Positions 14,603 through 33,392 are shown, numbered from the stretch's first letter. The stretch: DNA of 63,009 bases from Acidimicrobiia bacterium (GCA_020832495.1 JAFIEP010000026.1:1-63009); one strand, 5' to 3'. Notes: a model not told the origin generated them from the letters alone. Program-made: numbers and translations.

Positions 14603-16647
<2,045 letters not shown>

Positions 16648-16684: not shown

Positions 16685-17401
16685 ATGACGGCAAAGTGGT
16701 TCAACAGGCGCTCTGTCGCTGAGATCAGGAGCCTGGGACCTCTTCAAGGCGGGAGGTATCTCATCGCGCGCCTCAGCGCCAACCGTCTCGCCGGAGCATC
16801 CAGGCTCTCCTTCTCCCAATTTGGGGAAGATCTGGCAATCGAGTCTCTTCCGGCGCTAAGCGACGTTGGAACCTTTGTAGATGTAGGGTGTAACCACCCA
16901 ATAAAGTACTCGAACACTTACCGCCTCTACATTCATGGGTGGTCAGGCATCGCAATCGATGCCAACCCACGATTCGCTCATGCATGGGCCAGAGCTCGGC
17001 CCCGGGACTGCTTTGTTCAAGCCCTAGTTTCCGACTGCGAAACTGAGCGCACGTTTATTGAGTTCGCCGACGACCTAGTCTCGACTACCAGCCGAGAATG
17101 GTCCAGACTCCAGTTGGCCAAGGGAAGGCCAGTTAAGTCGGAACACCGTATGGTATCTCGGACCCTCAACTCGATCCTGCAAGAGAGGCAGTGTCCACAG
17201 GTCAACCTCTTGAGTATTGACTGTGAGGGCCACGACATGGAAGTCCTCAGGTCAATAGACCTCCACTACTATAGGCCAGCGACTATCCTGATTGAGTCAG
17301 CGGCCGATCCCGGAGGCCGGGAGCATCACTTGCATCTAGAACGCCACGGATATATCCCATGGGCAACGCTCGACCGGACTGAGATATGGATGTTGACCTA
17401 G
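16685..17401 (+). CDS. FkbM-family methyltransferase
   Basis: 238 residues from ATG 16685 (MTAKWFNRRSVAEI); a longer reading from 16604 would run back into gmd. The FkbM core is FSQFGEDLAIE, TFVDVGCNHPIKYSNTY (SAM site), GIAIDANPRF and LLSIDCEGHDMEVLRSID. FkbM enzymes O-methylate hydroxyls on polyketides and glycans. First of three GC-poor genes (16.7-19.2 kb) inserted after gmd. Confidence 0.8.
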   Translation: MTAKWFNRRSVAEIRSLGPLQGGRYLIARLSANRLAGASRLSFSQFGEDLAIESLPALSDVGTFVDVGCNHPIKYSNTYRLYIHGWSGIAIDANPRFAHAWARARPRDCFVQALVSDCETERTFIEFADDLVSTTSREWSRLQLAKGRPVKSEHRMVSRTLNSILQERQCPQVNLLSIDCEGHDMEVLRSIDLHYYRPATILIESAADPGGREHHLHLERHGYIPWATLDRTEIWMLT

Positions 17402-17468
17402 ATGGCCACATCGCCACACCACTGCTTTTCATAAGTGTCTCCGGGCAGACTCACCACCCAGTTGATGC

Positions 17469-18467
17469 ATGCTATTTAGTGCGAATAGGCAGGACTCAAT
17501 GTTAAGCAACGTAATTAGCGCGCTGCAAGCGGCGATGGATGCACGCTCTATTCGTAACCCCAGTCGCCGAGTGCCGCGGGTTCTAAGTGAAGCACGCTAC
17601 AAGTTCACACACTATCACTGGCGCATGATTCAAGGGGGAGGACCCAGCTTCTCTACTTGCCTCGACCTGCAGAATCGACTCCTTCACCGCGATTCAACGT
17701 TCGCCCGAGAGATCTGGAGACTCGACGACAAACTCACCGCGTACGAGCATGCCGACAGACTAGGAGTGGCTCACCCTGAGGTATACAGAGTGTGGAAGAG
17801 CTTTGAGGAAATAACCTTTGATGATCTGCCACGGCGAGTCTGCATAAAGCCGTCAACGCTATTTTCCGGAAAAGGAGTTTTCACGCTTCGAATCTTGTCC
17901 GGGTCTCGAGCGCTGCACGCGACAAGTGGGGCGCCCGTGTCTCTGCATGACGTCCATCGGTACTTCCAAGCGAATGATCCGCAGCAGGAGTGGAGGAAGC
18001 TTTCTACCTGTCGGCGTGACCCTCCTCGATACTACGCTGAGGCGCTGATAGGTGGTGATCGCGGGCCATTGGCCCAAGATTTAAAGCTATATATGTTTAG
18101 AGGGCGCCTGGGTCTTGTGCTGCTGATGCGACGCGAGCGAGAGGTCGAGCGAAAGTACTATGACGGGAAACTGAATGCGCTCGGTCCGATTATATATCCA
18201 CACCTCAAGGGGGGCGGAATGGAGTTGCCTCCTGATATCGAAAATGTAGTTGAGGCTGCATGTAAATTGTCACGCGAGGTCCAGCTCCCATTTGTGCGAA
18301 TCGACTTTCTATCAAGCGGATCGAAGCCTTCCTTATTCGGGGAAATCACTCCTACTCCCGGGGGTTCGATACTCCCACCGCCTGCGCTCGACCGTGCGCT
18401 TGGACTGTTGTGGGAAGAAGCCCTTGAGGAGCTACTGGCGGAGATACTAAATAATGAACGGCGCTAG
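17469..18467 (+). CDS. ATP-grasp protein resembling TupA / sugar-transfer-associated ATP-grasp
   Basis: 332 residues (an ATG at 17499 is an alternative start). The ATP-grasp pattern is present: VCIKPSTLFSGKGVF (124-138; Lys and flexible loop), DLKLYMFRGRLGLV (204-217), FVRIDFL (275-281) and LFGEITPTPGGS (289-300; metal-binding Glu/Asn region). The family joins a carboxylate to an amine or thiol through an acyl phosphate; members in teichuronic-acid and capsule loci act on polysaccharides. Its end overlaps the QueC-like gene by 14 bp, so the two are probably made together. GC-poor and not native-looking. Confidence 0.75.
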   Translation: MLFSANRQDSMLSNVISALQAAMDARSIRNPSRRVPRVLSEARYKFTHYHWRMIQGGGPSFSTCLDLQNRLLHRDSTFAREIWRLDDKLTAYEHADRLGVAHPEVYRVWKSFEEITFDDLPRRVCIKPSTLFSGKGVFTLRILSGSRALHATSGAPVSLHDVHRYFQANDPQQEWRKLSTCRRDPPRYYAEALIGGDRGPLAQDLKLYMFRGRLGLVLLMRREREVERKYYDGKLNALGPIIYPHLKGGGMELPPDIENVVEAACKLSREVQLPFVRIDFLSSGSKPSLFGEITPTPGGSILPPPALDRALGLLWEEALEELLAEILNNERR

Positions 18468-19239
18468 TGATCCAGGGAGGAAAGAGCACCATGTCCTATG
18501 GACCTCTGGCTGGGATTCGACCTTTCGGGTAGCGTCCCTTCTAACGGTATATCAACGCAAGGTCCGCCCATACTATGTAGTGCACCCCGGCCGGCCGTCC
18601 ATGGAGAAGGAACTACAGACGCTAGAAGTGTTGAGGACACTACTTATTGAGAGGTATGGTGTAGATGAAAGTCGACTCGCTCCACTCCGCGCTCTAGCTA
18701 TCCAAACTATTGATGTTAGTCCGGAGGACGAGCGCTGCTATCAAGTCATCCGAGATCGCGCATTCTTGGGCGACCAGTGGCGTTGGTTACCTGCTGTGGC
18801 GAGAGCAGTTGGGCCTGATGCGATAGAAGTATCTGTACATCAGGACGACAACGCGACCCGCATCGTTAAGGATCTGGTGGTGGCGTCAGGAGGAACTGGT
18901 GCTGACAAATACTACGAGCTAGCTAGCTTCGCTGGAGCCGAAGAACGGCACCTGTTCGGCTCCTTCACGTTCCCTCTATTCGAGTTCACGAAACTCGACA
19001 TGGAGCGCAGTGCGAAGGAAGCTGGATTCATCGGCCTCATGGAGGCTACCTGGTTTTGTCATTCTCCGACGGCTCGCGGAAGGCCGTGTGGGATTTGTAA
19101 CCCGTGTGAGTATACGAAGCAGGAGGGCCTCGGTCGAAGGGTTCCAAGTAGCCGGAGTGCCGGCGTGGTGGTGCGACGACTTCGCGGCAAGGCAAGCTGG
19201 CGATACCGGCAGGTTAGACAACTGTGGCGTAGGATCTGA
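18454..19239 (+). CDS. QueC-like PP-loop ATPase with zinc-binding cysteines
   Basis: 261 residues. PP-loop is SGWDSTF (18-24), a variant of SGGxDS, which binds ATP for adenylation. At the C-terminus C202-x9-C212-x2-C215-x2-C218 (PCGICNPC) matches the zinc site of 7-cyano-7-deazaguanine synthase. No queD, queE or queF-like gene is nearby, and the middle region is not the standard QueC sequence, so preQ0 synthesis is unlikely to be its job. With the overlapping ATP-grasp gene it may activate a carboxylate for amide, nitrile or related chemistry on the glycan (inference). The IS110 element lies just downstream and may have cut off further genes. Confidence 0.7.
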   Translation: MNGASDPGRKEHHVLWTSGWDSTFRVASLLTVYQRKVRPYYVVHPGRPSMEKELQTLEVLRTLLIERYGVDESRLAPLRALAIQTIDVSPEDERCYQVIRDRAFLGDQWRWLPAVARAVGPDAIEVSVHQDDNATRIVKDLVVASGGTGADKYYELASFAGAEERHLFGSFTFPLFEFTKLDMERSAKEAGFIGLMEATWFCHSPTARGRPCGICNPCEYTKQEGLGRRVPSSRSAGVVVRRLRGKASWRYRQVRQLWRRI

Positions 19240-19345: not shown

Positions 19346-19503
19346 GAGGGGACCGGTTGCTGCGGGTTCGCCTCGTAGTGTCCGGGAGGTCGTTGGGCGG
19401 GGTGGCTCGTGAACCGCCTGCCGCCCTCGGGTTGGCTCTCCCAGGGTTTGCCTCCCGCCCGACGGCCGGTCGCGGTCTGGCTCAACAGAGGACTGGTCCC
19501 TGC
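19346..19503 (+). ncRNA. Candidate IS110 bridge RNA
   Basis: The leader folds on paper into a closed structure. The outer stem is GGGACCGGT (19349-19357) with ACTGGTCCC (19492-19500), 9 bp including one G-U pair. A middle stem is GGGAG (19384-19388) with CTCCC (19438-19442), and an inner stem is GGGCGG (19395-19400) with CCGCCC (19421-19426). Size (~155 nt) and position, upstream of an IS110 transposase, fit known bridge RNAs that guide target and donor pairing. Loop assignments were not attempted. Confidence 0.4.
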
Positions 19504-19573
19504 GTTTATGGGCCTCGAAGTCGGCATGCCGATCGCGGCTTTCCCGTTGGAGATCGTAGATCGGAGCAACCGG

Positions 19574-20629
19574 ATGATCATCGGAGTGGACCCACACAAG
19601 AGCTCGCACACCGCCACGGCACTCGACCCGGCGACGAACACGCCGGTGGCGTCGCTTCGGGTCGAGGCGACGCTGACTGGCTATCGCCGCCTGCTGCGGT
19701 GGGCTCAGCAGTTCGAGGACCGGCGCTGGGCGGTCGAGGGCGCCAGGGGCCTTGGCCGACATCTCGCCCAGTGGCTCGTCGCTCGCGACGAGGCTGTCGT
19801 GGACGTGCCCAGCACGGCGACGGCCCGGGTGCGAGAGCTCTCACGCGGCAGCCGCCGCAAGACCGACGTGATCGACGCAGCCGCTGCTGCCAGCGTCGCT
19901 GCGCTGCATGGCGACGCCACACCGGTGGCGGCCGAGGACCACACCACGGTGTTCGCGCTGCTCGAGGAACGCCGAGCAAACCTTGCGGCGCAACGGGTTC
20001 GGGTCGCCAACCAGCTGCATGCCGTGCTGCGCGACCTCGTGCCAGGCGGCGCCGAGGTGGCGCTCACCGCGAAAGCCGCCGCCGCGATGTTGCGCTGCGT
20101 GCGACCGGCCTCGGCGTGCGAGCGCGCCCGCAAGGACCTCGCCCAGGACCTTGTCAAAGAGCTCCGCACGGTTGATGCGAGCCTGGCCGACATCGAGAAG
20201 CGGATGGCCGCAGCGCTCGACAATCACGGCTCACAGCTGCGCGAGGTCGACGGCGTCGGAGCAGTCACCGCCGTGCGCCTCATCGGCCGCACCGGCCCCG
20301 CATCGCGGTTCGCCACAGTGCATGCCTTCGCCACCTACGCCGGCGTCGCCCCGATCGAAGTCGCCTCCGGTGAGCGGACCCGCCATCGACTGTCCAGGCG
20401 CGGGGACCGACAGCTCAACTCGGCGATCCACCTCGTCGCCGTCACCCAGGTCCGCATGGCGAACAGCCTCGGCCGCGAGTACTTCGACAAGAAGATCGCC
20501 GAGGGCAAGACCCGCAACGAGGCCATGCGCTGCCTCAAGCGACGCCTCGCCAACCACCTCTGGCGGCTCATGCTCGCCGACGAGCGACGCCTCAACGCTC
20601 CGCCCGAGAGCGTCCCGATCGCCGCTTGA
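19574..20629 (+). CDS. IS110-family transposase (DEDD recombinase)
   Basis: 351 residues from ATG 19574 (MIIGVDPHKSSHTATAL). Upstream in-frame codons belong to the non-coding leader. The N-terminal RuvC-like DEDD domain has D6 (GVDPHK), a Glu in WAVEGARGLG and the Asp pair in KTDVIDA. The C-terminal Transposase_20 domain has VDGVGAVTAVRLIGRTG, the HhH-like part, and SGERTRHRLSRRGDRQLN with the conserved serine region. Appears intact. It moves the element by recombination without DDE chemistry. Confidence 0.9.
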   Translation: MIIGVDPHKSSHTATALDPATNTPVASLRVEATLTGYRRLLRWAQQFEDRRWAVEGARGLGRHLAQWLVARDEAVVDVPSTATARVRELSRGSRRKTDVIDAAAAASVAALHGDATPVAAEDHTTVFALLEERRANLAAQRVRVANQLHAVLRDLVPGGAEVALTAKAAAAMLRCVRPASACERARKDLAQDLVKELRTVDASLADIEKRMAAALDNHGSQLREVDGVGAVTAVRLIGRTGPASRFATVHAFATYAGVAPIEVASGERTRHRLSRRGDRQLNSAIHLVAVTQVRMANSLGREYFDKKIAEGKTRNEAMRCLKRRLANHLWRLMLADERRLNAPPESVPIAA

Positions 20630-30130: not shown

Positions 30131-32491
30131 CTAGAGGCGCAGCGATTCGTGCAGTGGCCCCGCCCACTCGAGCCACGTACCGGCCTCGGATCCCCCAACC
30201 GCGCTGCGTGTGCCCGGGGCCTCGACCAGATCCACCGTCACCGCCACCTCGTCGTCGTGCACCAGCGGTTGGCGGTCGAGGGCCAAGACGTAGCCGTCGG
30301 CCAGCGACAGCTGGCCGCTCAGGTCGAACACCACCGTCACCGACTCGCCCGGGGGCACGGCCAGGCGTACGTCGTGCACCCAGCCGCCGAAGGCCCGGTC
30401 GGTGCCCACCGCCACCGGCTGGCCATCGAGGGTGGCGGTCACCACGGTGAGCGGGGTGTAGAGGCTGAGGGTGGTCAGGTTGGTGCCCCACGGGGCGTCT
30501 GAGTTGTTGCCGATGACGTAGCGGGGGAGCCCCTCGGACGGTGCGGTGTTGGTCAGGGTCACTGTGGCCCTGGCCTCGGCCACCCCGCCGACGGGGTCGA
30601 GCTCCAGCTCGTAGGTCAGCTCACGTTCGAGGAACGAGTCGATCTTGTTGGCCCCGTTGTTGGTGGAGCGCACCGCCAACCAGTCGGCGGTCCGCCCGGC
30701 GTCGAAGCGTCGCAGCGCCCCGAAGCGCTCGAAGAACTCGGCCTCGTCGTCGTCGAACGGCACGAAGGCCAGGTGCCCCGCCCGGGTGGCCGGGCCCAGT
30801 GCGCCGGCGATGGTGCGCAGGTCGGGCAGGTCGCCGGTGGTCAGTTCCTCGAAGGTGGCCTCGGCCAGATCGGCCAGGGCGTCGCTGCGCTCGTCGACCT
30901 CGCCGTCGAACTCCACGTACTGATCCAGCCACAGGTACTGCTCCACCGTGTCGGCGTCGAAGGTGCGGCCGTCGAGTTCGTCAACGGTGACCGGCCCGGT
31001 GAGCTCCAACAGCGCGGCCAGGCCGGTGGGGTCGATGACGGCCACCCCGTCCACCTCGGTGCCGGTGAGCTGCGCGTAGGCGTCGGCCGCCCACACCGCC
31101 GCGGTCGGCACGTCGGGGGACATGGTGACGTTCTGGAAGAACCGTTGCGGCCCGTAGGCCACATAGCGGGTGGCGTAGGCGCTGTCGGGTGGCACGACCA
31201 GGCCGCCGTCGGGCAGCTCGGTGGCGAAGTCGGCGGCCCGGCCGGTCTCCACGAGATCCAGGTCACCGTTCGTCACCTGCAGCTCACCCCACGAACCCAC
31301 GAACCCGCCCGGTTCGCGGGCTTCGGTGGGGGTGGTGAACAACAGCAGATACGTGCGTGGCTCCTCGCCGCCCAAAAGGCCAGGGGCCACCGCCAGCCCG
31401 GCCTGGGCCAGCTCCACCTCCGCTGCGGTGTCGGCCACTTCGAGGTAGAAGTCCTCCACCCGGTTTGCCAACGGGCCCACCAGCCACGGGGTGGACGCCT
31501 CGGTCACGGTGGCGAGCGCCGCGTCGATGGTGGCCGCCGCGTTGTCCACCGGGTTGGTCATCGAGGCCAACAGCGCCAGGTCCACCCGGCCGGCTTCGGA
31601 TTTGAGGTCGCGGTAGGGCGCCGCGGTGGTGAGTTCGTAGGCGGCGCTCGACAGCGCGGCGCCGGCGTCGGCCACGTCGGCCACGGCCTGCACCTGCTGC
31701 GAGGCAATGGGGGCCAGGGCGGTGGGCCACACCAGCGGGTTGCGCAGGCGGGCGTGGGCGCTCTCGAAGTCGGCCTCGGCGCTGGCGAACAGTGCAGCGG
31801 CGCCGTCCTGGTCGCCACCGCGGAGCGCATCGGCGGCGTCGCGGGCGTCGTCACCGGCGCGGACGACGGTGGGCAGCGCGGTGGCGGCCACCACGGCCCC
31901 GACACCGGCCAACCCCACGAGCACGGCGGCAGCCACCAGGGTGCCCCGGCGCAGGTTGCGTTGCAGCTTCACCCCCGCCCCCCGGTAGGCGGAGACGAAC
32001 ACCGGCACCACCGCGGCGGCGGTGACGAGCGTGGGGATGCCGTGGGTGACCATGGGTTCGAGGTGCACCAGCGCGGCCACCGATCCGACGCCGATCCCGG
32101 CGCCCAGCAGTCGGTCGCGCTTGTCCATGAACACCCCGGACCACGCACCCACCAGGGCGGCGAGGGCGAAGGCCGTCCACGGCCAGTTCACCCCACTGGC
32201 CAGCGCCGCCAGGCCGGCCATCCAGGACCACGACCAGCGACGGGCCCGCGACGACGCCCACACGACCCCCGCCCCGAACGCCGCCGACCAGGCCACGTCG
32301 GTGACGGCCACGCCGGTGGGGGAGGGTCCGGCCGCCACGACCAGCACCGCCCCGGCACCGCAGGCGCCGGCGATGATGGCTCGCCGGGCGGGCGACGTGC
32401 GGATGACCTCGCGCCGGCGTTGGCGTTCGGTCGTGTCCTCGTCGGTTCCCACCACGGCGACCGGGTCCACGGACCAGATCCCGTCAGTCAT
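30131..32491 (-). CDS. DUF4012 domain membrane protein
   Basis: 786 residues from ATG 32491 (MTDGIWSVDPVAVVG); an ATG six codons earlier (32509) is equally possible. About six hydrophobic segments lie in residues 35-225, followed by a large extracytoplasmic part. DUF4012 hallmarks are YLLLFTTPTEAREPGGFVGS, the central DGVAVIDPTGLAALLELTGP and FVPFDDDEAEFFERFGALRR, with a beta-rich tail (ELELDPVGGVAEARATVTLT). The family is common in actinobacteria near cell-wall polysaccharide genes, but its biochemical role is unknown. It neighbours the polysaccharide locus and could be an envelope accessory protein. Confidence 0.75.
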   Translation of the reverse strand: MTDGIWSVDPVAVVGTDEDTTERQRRREVIRTSPARRAIIAGACGAGAVLVVAAGPSPTGVAVTDVAWSAAFGAGVVWASSRARRWSWSWMAGLAALASGVNWPWTAFALAALVGAWSGVFMDKRDRLLGAGIGVGSVAALVHLEPMVTHGIPTLVTAAAVVPVFVSAYRGAGVKLQRNLRRGTLVAAAVLVGLAGVGAVVAATALPTVVRAGDDARDAADALRGGDQDGAAALFASAEADFESAHARLRNPLVWPTALAPIASQQVQAVADVADAGAALSSAAYELTTAAPYRDLKSEAGRVDLALLASMTNPVDNAAATIDAALATVTEASTPWLVGPLANRVEDFYLEVADTAAEVELAQAGLAVAPGLLGGEEPRTYLLLFTTPTEAREPGGFVGSWGELQVTNGDLDLVETGRAADFATELPDGGLVVPPDSAYATRYVAYGPQRFFQNVTMSPDVPTAAVWAADAYAQLTGTEVDGVAVIDPTGLAALLELTGPVTVDELDGRTFDADTVEQYLWLDQYVEFDGEVDERSDALADLAEATFEELTTGDLPDLRTIAGALGPATRAGHLAFVPFDDDEAEFFERFGALRRFDAGRTADWLAVRSTNNGANKIDSFLERELTYELELDPVGGVAEARATVTLTNTAPSEGLPRYVIGNNSDAPWGTNLTTLSLYTPLTVVTATLDGQPVAVGTDRAFGGWVHDVRLAVPPGESVTVVFDLSGQLSLADGYVLALDRQPLVHDDEVAVTVDLVEAPGTRSAVGGSEAGTWLEWAGPLHESLRL

Positions 32492-32660
32492 CTGTGCAGT
32501 ATCGCCCATGGGGACGGTGCGCGGTGGACAGACGTCGGTGGGGAGCCGTCGCTCCCCATCGCTCAGGCGCAGGTTTCCCTGATGGGCACCAATGGCGGCA
32601 CTACACTGAGGCACCGACGGCCGACCGGCCCGCATTCGACCAACCACCAAGCGAGGCGAC

Positions 32661-32945
32661 GTGAGCGAGCCACAGTCCGACGACCCGTTCAAGGCGGACA
32701 AGCGCAAAGACGAGACGGTCATGTTGTCCCAGGACAACTTGGCCGACATCGTGTCGCAGGCCAAGGGTGGCGACGCCCCGGCCGACGCTCCGGCGCAACC
32801 AGCCAGCGCCGAGCCGGCCCCGTCTGCGGCTGCTCCCGCTCCCGCCGCTGACAGCGACGAGAACTCGAACAGCATCTGGATGCTGGTCGGGGGCATCGCC
32901 CTCATCCTGCTCCTCGCCGTCATCGCCTTCGCGCTGTTCGGCTGA
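32661..32945 (+). CDS. Small tail-anchored membrane protein
   Basis: 94 residues from GTG 32661. Charged N-terminus (SEPQSDDPFKADKRKDETV), Ala/Pro-rich middle (about 38-64), one C-terminal helix (IWMLVGGIALILLLAVIAFA, about 72-93). The stop shares a base with the start of the FHA gene, so the two form an operon; together they could act as a membrane anchor and a phosphothreonine reader. No named family recognised. Confidence 0.65.
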   Translation: MSEPQSDDPFKADKRKDETVMLSQDNLADIVSQAKGGDAPADAPAQPASAEPAPSAAAPAPAADSDENSNSIWMLVGGIALILLLAVIAFALFG

Positions 32946-33382
32946 TGAGCGACAGCACCGCAGCACCCTTCTGGCTCCAGATCACCGAGCCGGGCCGTTC
33001 GCCGCGGGTGGTGACCCTTGCGGGTCCGGTCGAGGTGGGACGGGACTGCGAGGACATCGTCCTCGACGACCCCACCACCTCGCGTCGACACCTGGTGCTC
33101 GACCCCGCCGGCGACGGCGTGGTGGTCACCGACCAGGGCAGCGCCAACGGCACGTTCGTCGACGGTGAGCGCATCACCGACCCGGTGGTGTTGGGCCCCG
33201 GCCACGTGGTGCGCCTCGGAGAGACCGAACTGCGTATCGTGCAGGGCCGCGCCACCACCGGCACCGCCGGCACCGCCGACGCCTCCGAACCGGCGGTCAG
33301 CCACCAACGAGCCTCCTCTGCCGCACGCGACCTGAACCGGGCAGCCGGCAAGGGCGGCCTGCGGGGCTTCCGCAAGGGCTGA
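32945..33382 (+). CDS. FHA-domain protein
   Basis: 145 residues; nearly all of residues 18-100 is one forkhead-associated domain: VEVGRDCEDIVLDD (Gly-Arg), TTSRRHLVL (Ser-Arg-His) and DQGSANGTFVDGERI (Asn-Gly). All phosphothreonine-binding positions are present. The tail is Ala/basic. It is probably a cytosolic reader of a Ser/Thr kinase signal, partnered with the tail-anchored protein it overlaps; no kinase gene is in the window. Confidence 0.85.
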   Translation: MSDSTAAPFWLQITEPGRSPRVVTLAGPVEVGRDCEDIVLDDPTTSRRHLVLDPAGDGVVVTDQGSANGTFVDGERITDPVVLGPGHVVRLGETELRIVQGRATTGTAGTADASEPAVSHQRASSAARDLNRAAGKGGLRGFRKG

Positions 33383-33392
33383 GCAGGCCATT

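Follow-up and report, generated by a model that had tools for sequence, protein, structure and literature searches.

A QueC-related PP-loop gene and an overlapping TupA-like ATP-grasp gene in a bacterial polysaccharide locus: a possible amide-forming pair

The window analysed here is a stretch of 63,009 nucleotides from an Acidimicrobiia bacterium (GCA_020832495.1, JAFIEP010000026.1:1-63009), and the present work concerns three consecutive genes on its plus strand. The first, at 16685-17401, encodes an FkbM-family SAM-dependent methyltransferase of 238 amino acids (PF05050, TIGR01444); the second, at 17469-18467, a TupA-like ATP-grasp amidoligase of 332 amino acids (PF14305); and the third, at 18454-19239, a PP-loop ATP-pyrophosphatase of 261 amino acids, related to QueC by its PF06508 match, its motifs and its model, that belongs to what we call the LWT[G/S]GWDS family. 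The PP-loop gene opens with an ATG within the 3' end of the ATP-grasp gene, so that the two overlap by 14 bases. The trio is preceded by gmd, the gene of a GDP-mannose 4,6-dehydratase (15568-16647, plus strand; PF16363, 446 bits), and the GC content of the three genes, in order, is 55.6%, 54.1% and 55.9%, against 68.0% for the whole window. The initial annotation had described three consecutive GC-poor genes after gmd, the last two overlapping: profile matches, coordinates and composition (54-56% against 68%) all agree with this description. The motifs that it quoted, SGKGVF, GEITPTPGG and SGWDSTF, are also found, as is the zinc site Cys-x9-Cys-x2-Cys-x2-Cys, here C202-x9-C212-x2-C215-x2-C218. 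In the PP-loop gene, the modified PP-loop VLWTSGWDSTFR occupies residues 14-25 (18493-18528, plus strand), and the QueC-type zinc site, WFC-x9-CGxCxPC, residues 200-218 (19051-19107, plus strand).

The surroundings are those of a polysaccharide locus. Pfam and NCBIfam annotation places an NAD-epimerase gene and gmd upstream of the trio, whose neighbours also include several GT4 glycosyltransferases, an O-antigen-ligase-type gene (Wzy_C) and a chain-length tyrosine kinase. Downstream, 170 bases separate the trio from the start of an IS110-family transposase (19409-20629, plus strand; PF01548, PF02371), which was expected directly behind the trio and is indeed there; more insertion sequences follow. 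The whole segment 19409-25000 is an insertion-sequence cluster, made of the IS110 element, identified by Pfam, and then of IS30-, ISL3- and IS3-like transposase reading frames, identified by reading. Beyond this cluster the polysaccharide locus resumes with lower-GC glycosyltransferases on the opposite strand, and a protein of 1086 amino acids with a DUF4012 domain (PF13196) adjoins it at 30134-33391. The insertion sequences break the locus, which may be non-functional; the reading frames of all three trio genes are intact, and the ATP-grasp/PP-loop pair is a real one, intact and of foreign origin. No uronate-forming gene was seen in the annotated part of the window, and uronate-forming dehydrogenase genes are present elsewhere in the host genome.

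The first gene of the trio is assigned to the FkbM family by both of its profiles, with 52.2 bits for PF05050 (cut-off 22.7) and 40.8 bits for TIGR01444 (cut-off 37.7). A weak search with one seed found no FkbM gene next to any PP-loop family member other than that of the window, and the notion of FkbM as a recurrent third member finds no backing in it. The methyltransferase may be an independent O-methyltransferase; it shares the GC-poor insert and is a candidate member of the functional unit.

The second gene product scores 80.6 bits with the profile ATPgrasp_TupA (PF14305), whose cut-off is 25, and its AlphaFold2 model (pLDDT 78) has the ATP-grasp fold, so that its membership in the TupA-like family rests on both gathering score and fold. 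The structural matches of the model are carboxylate-amine ligases: D-Ala-D-Ala ligases (Ddl), LysX/ArgX and RimK. Across 29 aligned TupA-like sequences, ten residues never vary (D87, K127, E191, R277, D279, G291, E292, T294, G298, G312), and two more, D204 and K206, hardly do.

The PP-loop protein barely passes the Pfam QueC model PF06508, with 23.1 bits against a threshold of 22, and the match covers only the 50 residues 172-221 of the C-terminal zinc region. In 59 aligned members of the family, the invariant residues are L15, W16, T17, G19, D21, S22, P39, Y41, R47 and E53, followed by G106, Q108, K180 and the zinc cysteines C202, C212, C215 and C218. One feature of canonical QueC, the Cys4 zinc site Cx8-10CxxCxxC, is kept in all 59 members. 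The P-loop SGGxDS, present in seven of seven canonical QueC sequences, is found in no family member; the substrate motifs YxQxHxxE, VPxRN and YPDC each score 0/59; and SCY, which holds the essential tyrosine 189 of QueC, is found in a single member, with H203 in the window protein. The QueC motifs are taken from a survey of the PF06508 family (PMC13329287), which also gives Y35, R99 and Y131 as essential. Each of the seven canonical QueC controls shows SGGxDS, YPDC, SCY and a VPxRN-type motif, relaxed patterns being applied to some of them. The motif LWT[G/S]GWDS was itself partly built into the scan pattern, and two members with F instead of W (L022 and L068) were admitted through a second pattern.

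A quick tree splits canonical QueC from the LWT[G/S]GWDS family with support 98; with weak support for its deep branches, it suggests L074, L009, L091 and Bacillota as the nearest kin of the window protein. Motif loss and tree together put the PP-loop protein outside the canonical QueC clades, as the initial annotation had envisaged. The family is homologous to QueC over its length: HHalign against a canonical QueC profile gives a probability of 96.9% over 197 columns. The AlphaFold2 model, with a mean pLDDT of 93.8, has Cap9 as its top structural match (Z 12.4, 158 residues, 3.1 Å), followed by QueC (3BL5, Z 10.7) and QatC (Z 10.5). YcfA, TilS, LarE and TtuA come next, at Z 9-10, so that QueC and QatC, unlike Cap9, stand little above other PP-loop enzymes. 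Sequence searches of the PDB yielded no close solved relative. Given the HHalign probability and the matches to Cap9, QueC and QatC, the family represents a divergent lineage within the QueC-type PP-loop enzymes, and homology and fold both place it within the superfamily broadly defined by PF06508.

The distribution of the family was explored first with two and then with four aligned sequences, the four being the window protein, its counterpart in another genome of the order (37% identity) and sequences from two viral contigs. With the four-sequence alignment, a scan of GTDB genomes gave 219 relatives, of which 80 were listed; those listed come from Bacillota, Pseudomonadota, Actinomycetota, Bacteroidota, Nitrospirota, Kiritimatiellota, Planctomycetota, Cyanobacteriota and others, and the family also occurs in phage contigs. 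Close to the window it is rare, with one genome out of 396 in the phylum sample and one more of the same order. Searches by tblastn found no relatives in plasmids, and in phages only a distant one, in Bacillus phage SP-15 (26% identity); the gene in question (L011:3968-4705) reads VIWSGGCDS and matches PHROG 1550, 'QueC-like'.

Among the matches listed, an ATP-grasp gene is adjacent to the PP-loop gene, or at most 2 kb away, in five loci besides the window. In an actinomycete exopolysaccharide locus (L074), the order is GT2, GT2, TupA, PP-loop, ATPgrasp_ST, a flippase-like gene and UDP-glucose dehydrogenase; in a member of the Clostridia (L038), a flippase-like gene, GT4, TupA, ATPgrasp_ST and two PP-loop genes; in a member of the Kiritimatiellae (L061), PP-loop, ATPgrasp_ST and a polysaccharide pyruvyl transferase. 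In the remaining two, L027 and L071, the neighbour is respectively an ATP-grasp fragment at the end of a contig and an ATPgrasp_ST gene convergent with the PP-loop gene. A further locus, L028, has TupA 5.4 kb upstream of the PP-loop gene, in one shared glycan locus. The two activities are even fused in a phage contig, where a protein of 601 amino acids (L014:6855-8660) joins a RimK-like ATP-grasp to a PP-loop domain and adjoins UDP-glucose dehydrogenase; near-identical copies of this fusion are found in the contigs L014-L016, from related samples, and the fusion is also present in L191-L194. Linkage of the PP-loop family to ATP-grasp genes in other genomes, which the initial annotation had set as a check, is thus observed in these five loci and in the phage fusion. 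Under random placement within the 49 genomes concerned, 0.05 TupA genes would be expected within 2 kb, against 2 observed, and 0.04 ATPgrasp_ST genes, against 4-5 observed; glycan loci are where ATP-grasp genes cluster as well, so that part of this enrichment may reflect shared location.

The wider neighbourhoods were counted by six-frame HMM searches, since gene calls are poor in high-GC loci. Among the matches listed, 67 PP-loop loci had enough flank, and 40 control regions were drawn from family-carrying genomes and searched with identical HMMs; these were derived from the case loci, which somewhat favours cases over controls. At least two glycan families within about 10 kb were found in 19 of the 67 loci and in 1 of the 40 control regions (Fisher p 0.0006), and GT4 genes in 15 of 67 against 0 of 40. 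The idea of a glycan-modifying system therefore stands in part: glycan genes do recur, but the other 48 of these 67 loci lie outside recognisable glycan loci, and an adjacent ATP-grasp gene is limited to about six bacterial loci, so that a glycan role holds for a subset.

Several other contexts were seen along the way. The Lysobacteraceae loci between L029 and L098 form a large group of orthologues (Lysobacter, Pseudoxanthomonas, Luteimonas) that stand alone in chromosomes; these being mostly outside glycan loci, the role there is probably different. Tandem PP-loop genes, three copies in L092:8957-11722 and two in L038:5069-6667, suggest substrate diversification. In Steroidobacteraceae, the PP-loop gene adjoins one of the PEP phosphomutase family (L036:10836-11693; PF13714, confirmed in L036), and L033, L039 and L042 have neighbour genes similar to those of L036. 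Stand-alone PP-loop genes lie in phage- or prophage-like tail regions (L012:7977-8696, L013:7992-8732, L026:9932-10729). In L026, by a Pfam match, and seemingly in L013, judged by context and sequence, the PP-loop gene comes straight after that of a large protein carrying an M14 carboxypeptidase domain. Radical-SAM-like and methyltransferase-like reading frames are found upstream of the fusion in L014, a region that is possibly a phage cassette for glycan or base modification. Finally, an Asn-synthetase-like gene adjoins the PP-loop gene in L009 (13562-15331), L022 (10759-12501), L068 and L069 (10849-11802); its product is perhaps an alternative amide-forming partner.

The most economical reading of these data is that of paired, ATP-driven, amide-forming enzymes acting on a polysaccharide carboxylate. 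Sequences or models show which families are involved, that the catalytic residues are intact and the genes overlap, that the setting is one of glycan genes, that the pairing recurs and that the PP-loop family has diverged from QueC; from this we assemble a tentative proposal, to which we give somewhat less than an even chance: the ATP-grasp and PP-loop proteins would form a translationally coupled pair making amide bonds on such a carboxylate, presumably with both enzymes at work on one molecule. In QueC, formation of an acyl adenylate and its amidation make up the first half-reaction, and formation of the nitrile the second. In the order of steps that we infer, the TupA-like ATP-grasp would turn a carboxylate into an acyl phosphate and join it to an amine, either an amino acid or an amino alcohol, the likeliest carboxylate being C6 of a uronic acid, by analogy with the capsular enzyme Cj1438 discussed below. 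The PP-loop protein, a QueC fold with a new substrate pocket, would adenylate a second carboxylate, or the same one, and the acyl adenylate would yield an amide with ammonia or an amine, as in the first half-reaction of QueC. FkbM would possibly perform a later O-methylation of the glycan. The initial annotation had suggested that the pair could build an amide, a nitrile or an amino-acyl group: the amide has an experimental precedent for the TupA-like partner (PMC11800379), whereas a nitrile is possible, with nothing found in its favour. More generally, what stands of that first interpretation is a non-QueC family linked to ATP-grasp and glycan genes, and neither of the two outcomes named there as refuting was observed; what finds no support is the recurrence of FkbM and the nitrile.

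A bolder version of the proposal, which we regard as doubtful, is that the PP-loop family constitutes a new class of carboxylate-adenylating enzymes for cell-surface glycans, working with an ATP-grasp ligase of the TupA-like or sugar-transfer kind. It would imply a two-step modification of a uronic acid, to an aminoacyl-amide or even a nitrile, of a kind undescribed in any polysaccharide.

Amidation, amidine formation and thiolation are all reactions of PP-loop folds, and a first alternative is that the PP-loop protein performs some other AMP-activated chemistry on the same glycan, such as sulphur transfer or, in the manner proposed for WbpG, amidine formation on an N-acetyl sugar, the ATP-grasp alone making the amide. 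TtuA, LarE and TilS are among the structural neighbours of the model, at Z 9-10, and WbpG, which acts in O-antigen synthesis, is placed in the PF06508 network by the survey (PMC13329287). However, the best structural matches are QueC-type enzymes, and the Cys4 site fits the QueC pattern, rather than the CxxC(x)6CxC of WbpG or the three-cysteine motif of LarE; we thus consider this alternative rather unlikely.

There is also the possibility that the genes have no joint function, being passengers with separate past or present roles in a horizontally acquired remnant disrupted by insertion sequences. The low GC, the insertion sequences directly behind the trio, the scarcity of the family in the phylum sample and in the order, and the many PP-loop relatives that stand alone are all in keeping with such a history. 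Against it stand the three intact frames, the conserved catalytic residues, the overlap of the genes, and a pairing met again in phyla that are not related and, as a fusion, in phage; we judge this explanation improbable.

The remaining question is whether the PP-loop protein could act on 7-deazaguanines. Neither queD nor queE was seen in the annotated neighbourhood of the window, in keeping with the claim that no other preQ0 genes are present, but the host genome has a canonical QueC (231 bits) on another contig, with a QueD (PTPS) match 0.8 kb away and a QueE-like radical-SAM reading frame, read from translation, next to it. Among the family-carrying bacterial genomes checked, nine have canonical QueC matches above 200 bits, and seven, all drafts or MAGs, have neither a QueC nor a QueD match: Salimicrobium, Tetragenococcus, Actinomycetales SN12, Loktanella, Micrococcus and two clostridial MAGs. 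The absence of both genes from seven draft genomes, without being absolute, argues against a carboxy-deazaguanine substrate, and the family seems independent of 7-deazaguanine. A second QueC, or a Cap9- or QatC-like enzyme linking carboxy-deazaguanine to protein, is very improbable: Cap9, QueC and QatC do head the structural matches and the host has genes for preQ0 precursors, but the essential QueC motifs are missing, the tree sets canonical QueC apart, several family genomes have no strong QueC match, and neither a CD-NTase nor a QatA, QatB or QatD partner was seen among the annotated neighbours in the window, whose trio has no match in PADLOC.

The kinds of enzymes met here are known; what seems new is a QueC-type branch with a recurrent, if minority, link to ATP-grasp and glycan genes. 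The Pfam QueC model covers this branch in part only, so that its members easily go unnamed or are mistaken for queuosine enzymes. The 2026 network survey of PF06508 analysed the ten largest clusters, and its descriptions cover canonical QueC, QatC, Cap9, LarE, WbpG-type enzymes, GMP synthase and others; in its accessible text, no cluster described matches the family, and the LWT[G/S]GWDS signature is absent from the cluster descriptions (PMC13329287). A literature search for the letters of the motif returned nothing relevant. The family is thus undescribed in searchable papers. We know of no activity for any of its members. If the pairing is right, glycan modification joins the jobs of the QueC fold, and a testable route opens toward new amide-bearing surface sugars.

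Compared with QueC itself, the PP-loop protein has the same PP-loop ATP-pyrophosphatase fold, the Cys4 zinc site, a conserved lysine before the C-terminal region, and profile homology across most of its length; it differs in having T[G/S]GWDS in place of SGGxDS, in missing YxQxHxxE, VPxRN, YPDC and the SCY tyrosine, and in being unlinked to queD or queE. Canonical QueC identity was rejected on motifs, tree and genome content. With Cap9 of type IV CBASS and QatC of qatABCD, it shares the condition of a repurposed QueC fold, and these are its closest solved structures besides QueC; unlike them, the LWT[G/S]GWDS family also occurs in genomes with no QueC or QueD match, and membership among these deazaguanylases was rejected on motifs, genome content and partner genes. 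Like the WbpG-type N-acetyl sugar amidotransferases, it is a PP-loop enzyme in surface polysaccharide loci, but it has SGWDSTF and C-x9-C-x2-C-x2-C where WbpG has SGGxDSxY and CxxC(x)6CxC (PMC13329287), and membership was rejected on this arrangement of P-loop and cysteines. The closest precedent for the pair comes from its ATP-grasp member. The Campylobacter jejuni protein Cj1438 ends in a TupA-like domain (Cj1438C) that has been shown to attach (S)-serinol-P or ethanolamine-P, through an amide, to C6 of the glucuronic acid of the capsule (PMC11800379), and amide formation on the carboxylate of a uronic acid is, by this analogy, the activity predicted for the window ATP-grasp. Both are TupA-like ATP-grasps, the window protein by Pfam and Cj1438C by the name given to it in PMC11800379; both belong to glycan loci, and the ATP-grasp residues are retained. 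The window protein, however, stands alone, without the fusion to a GT2 domain, and its partner is a PP-loop gene.
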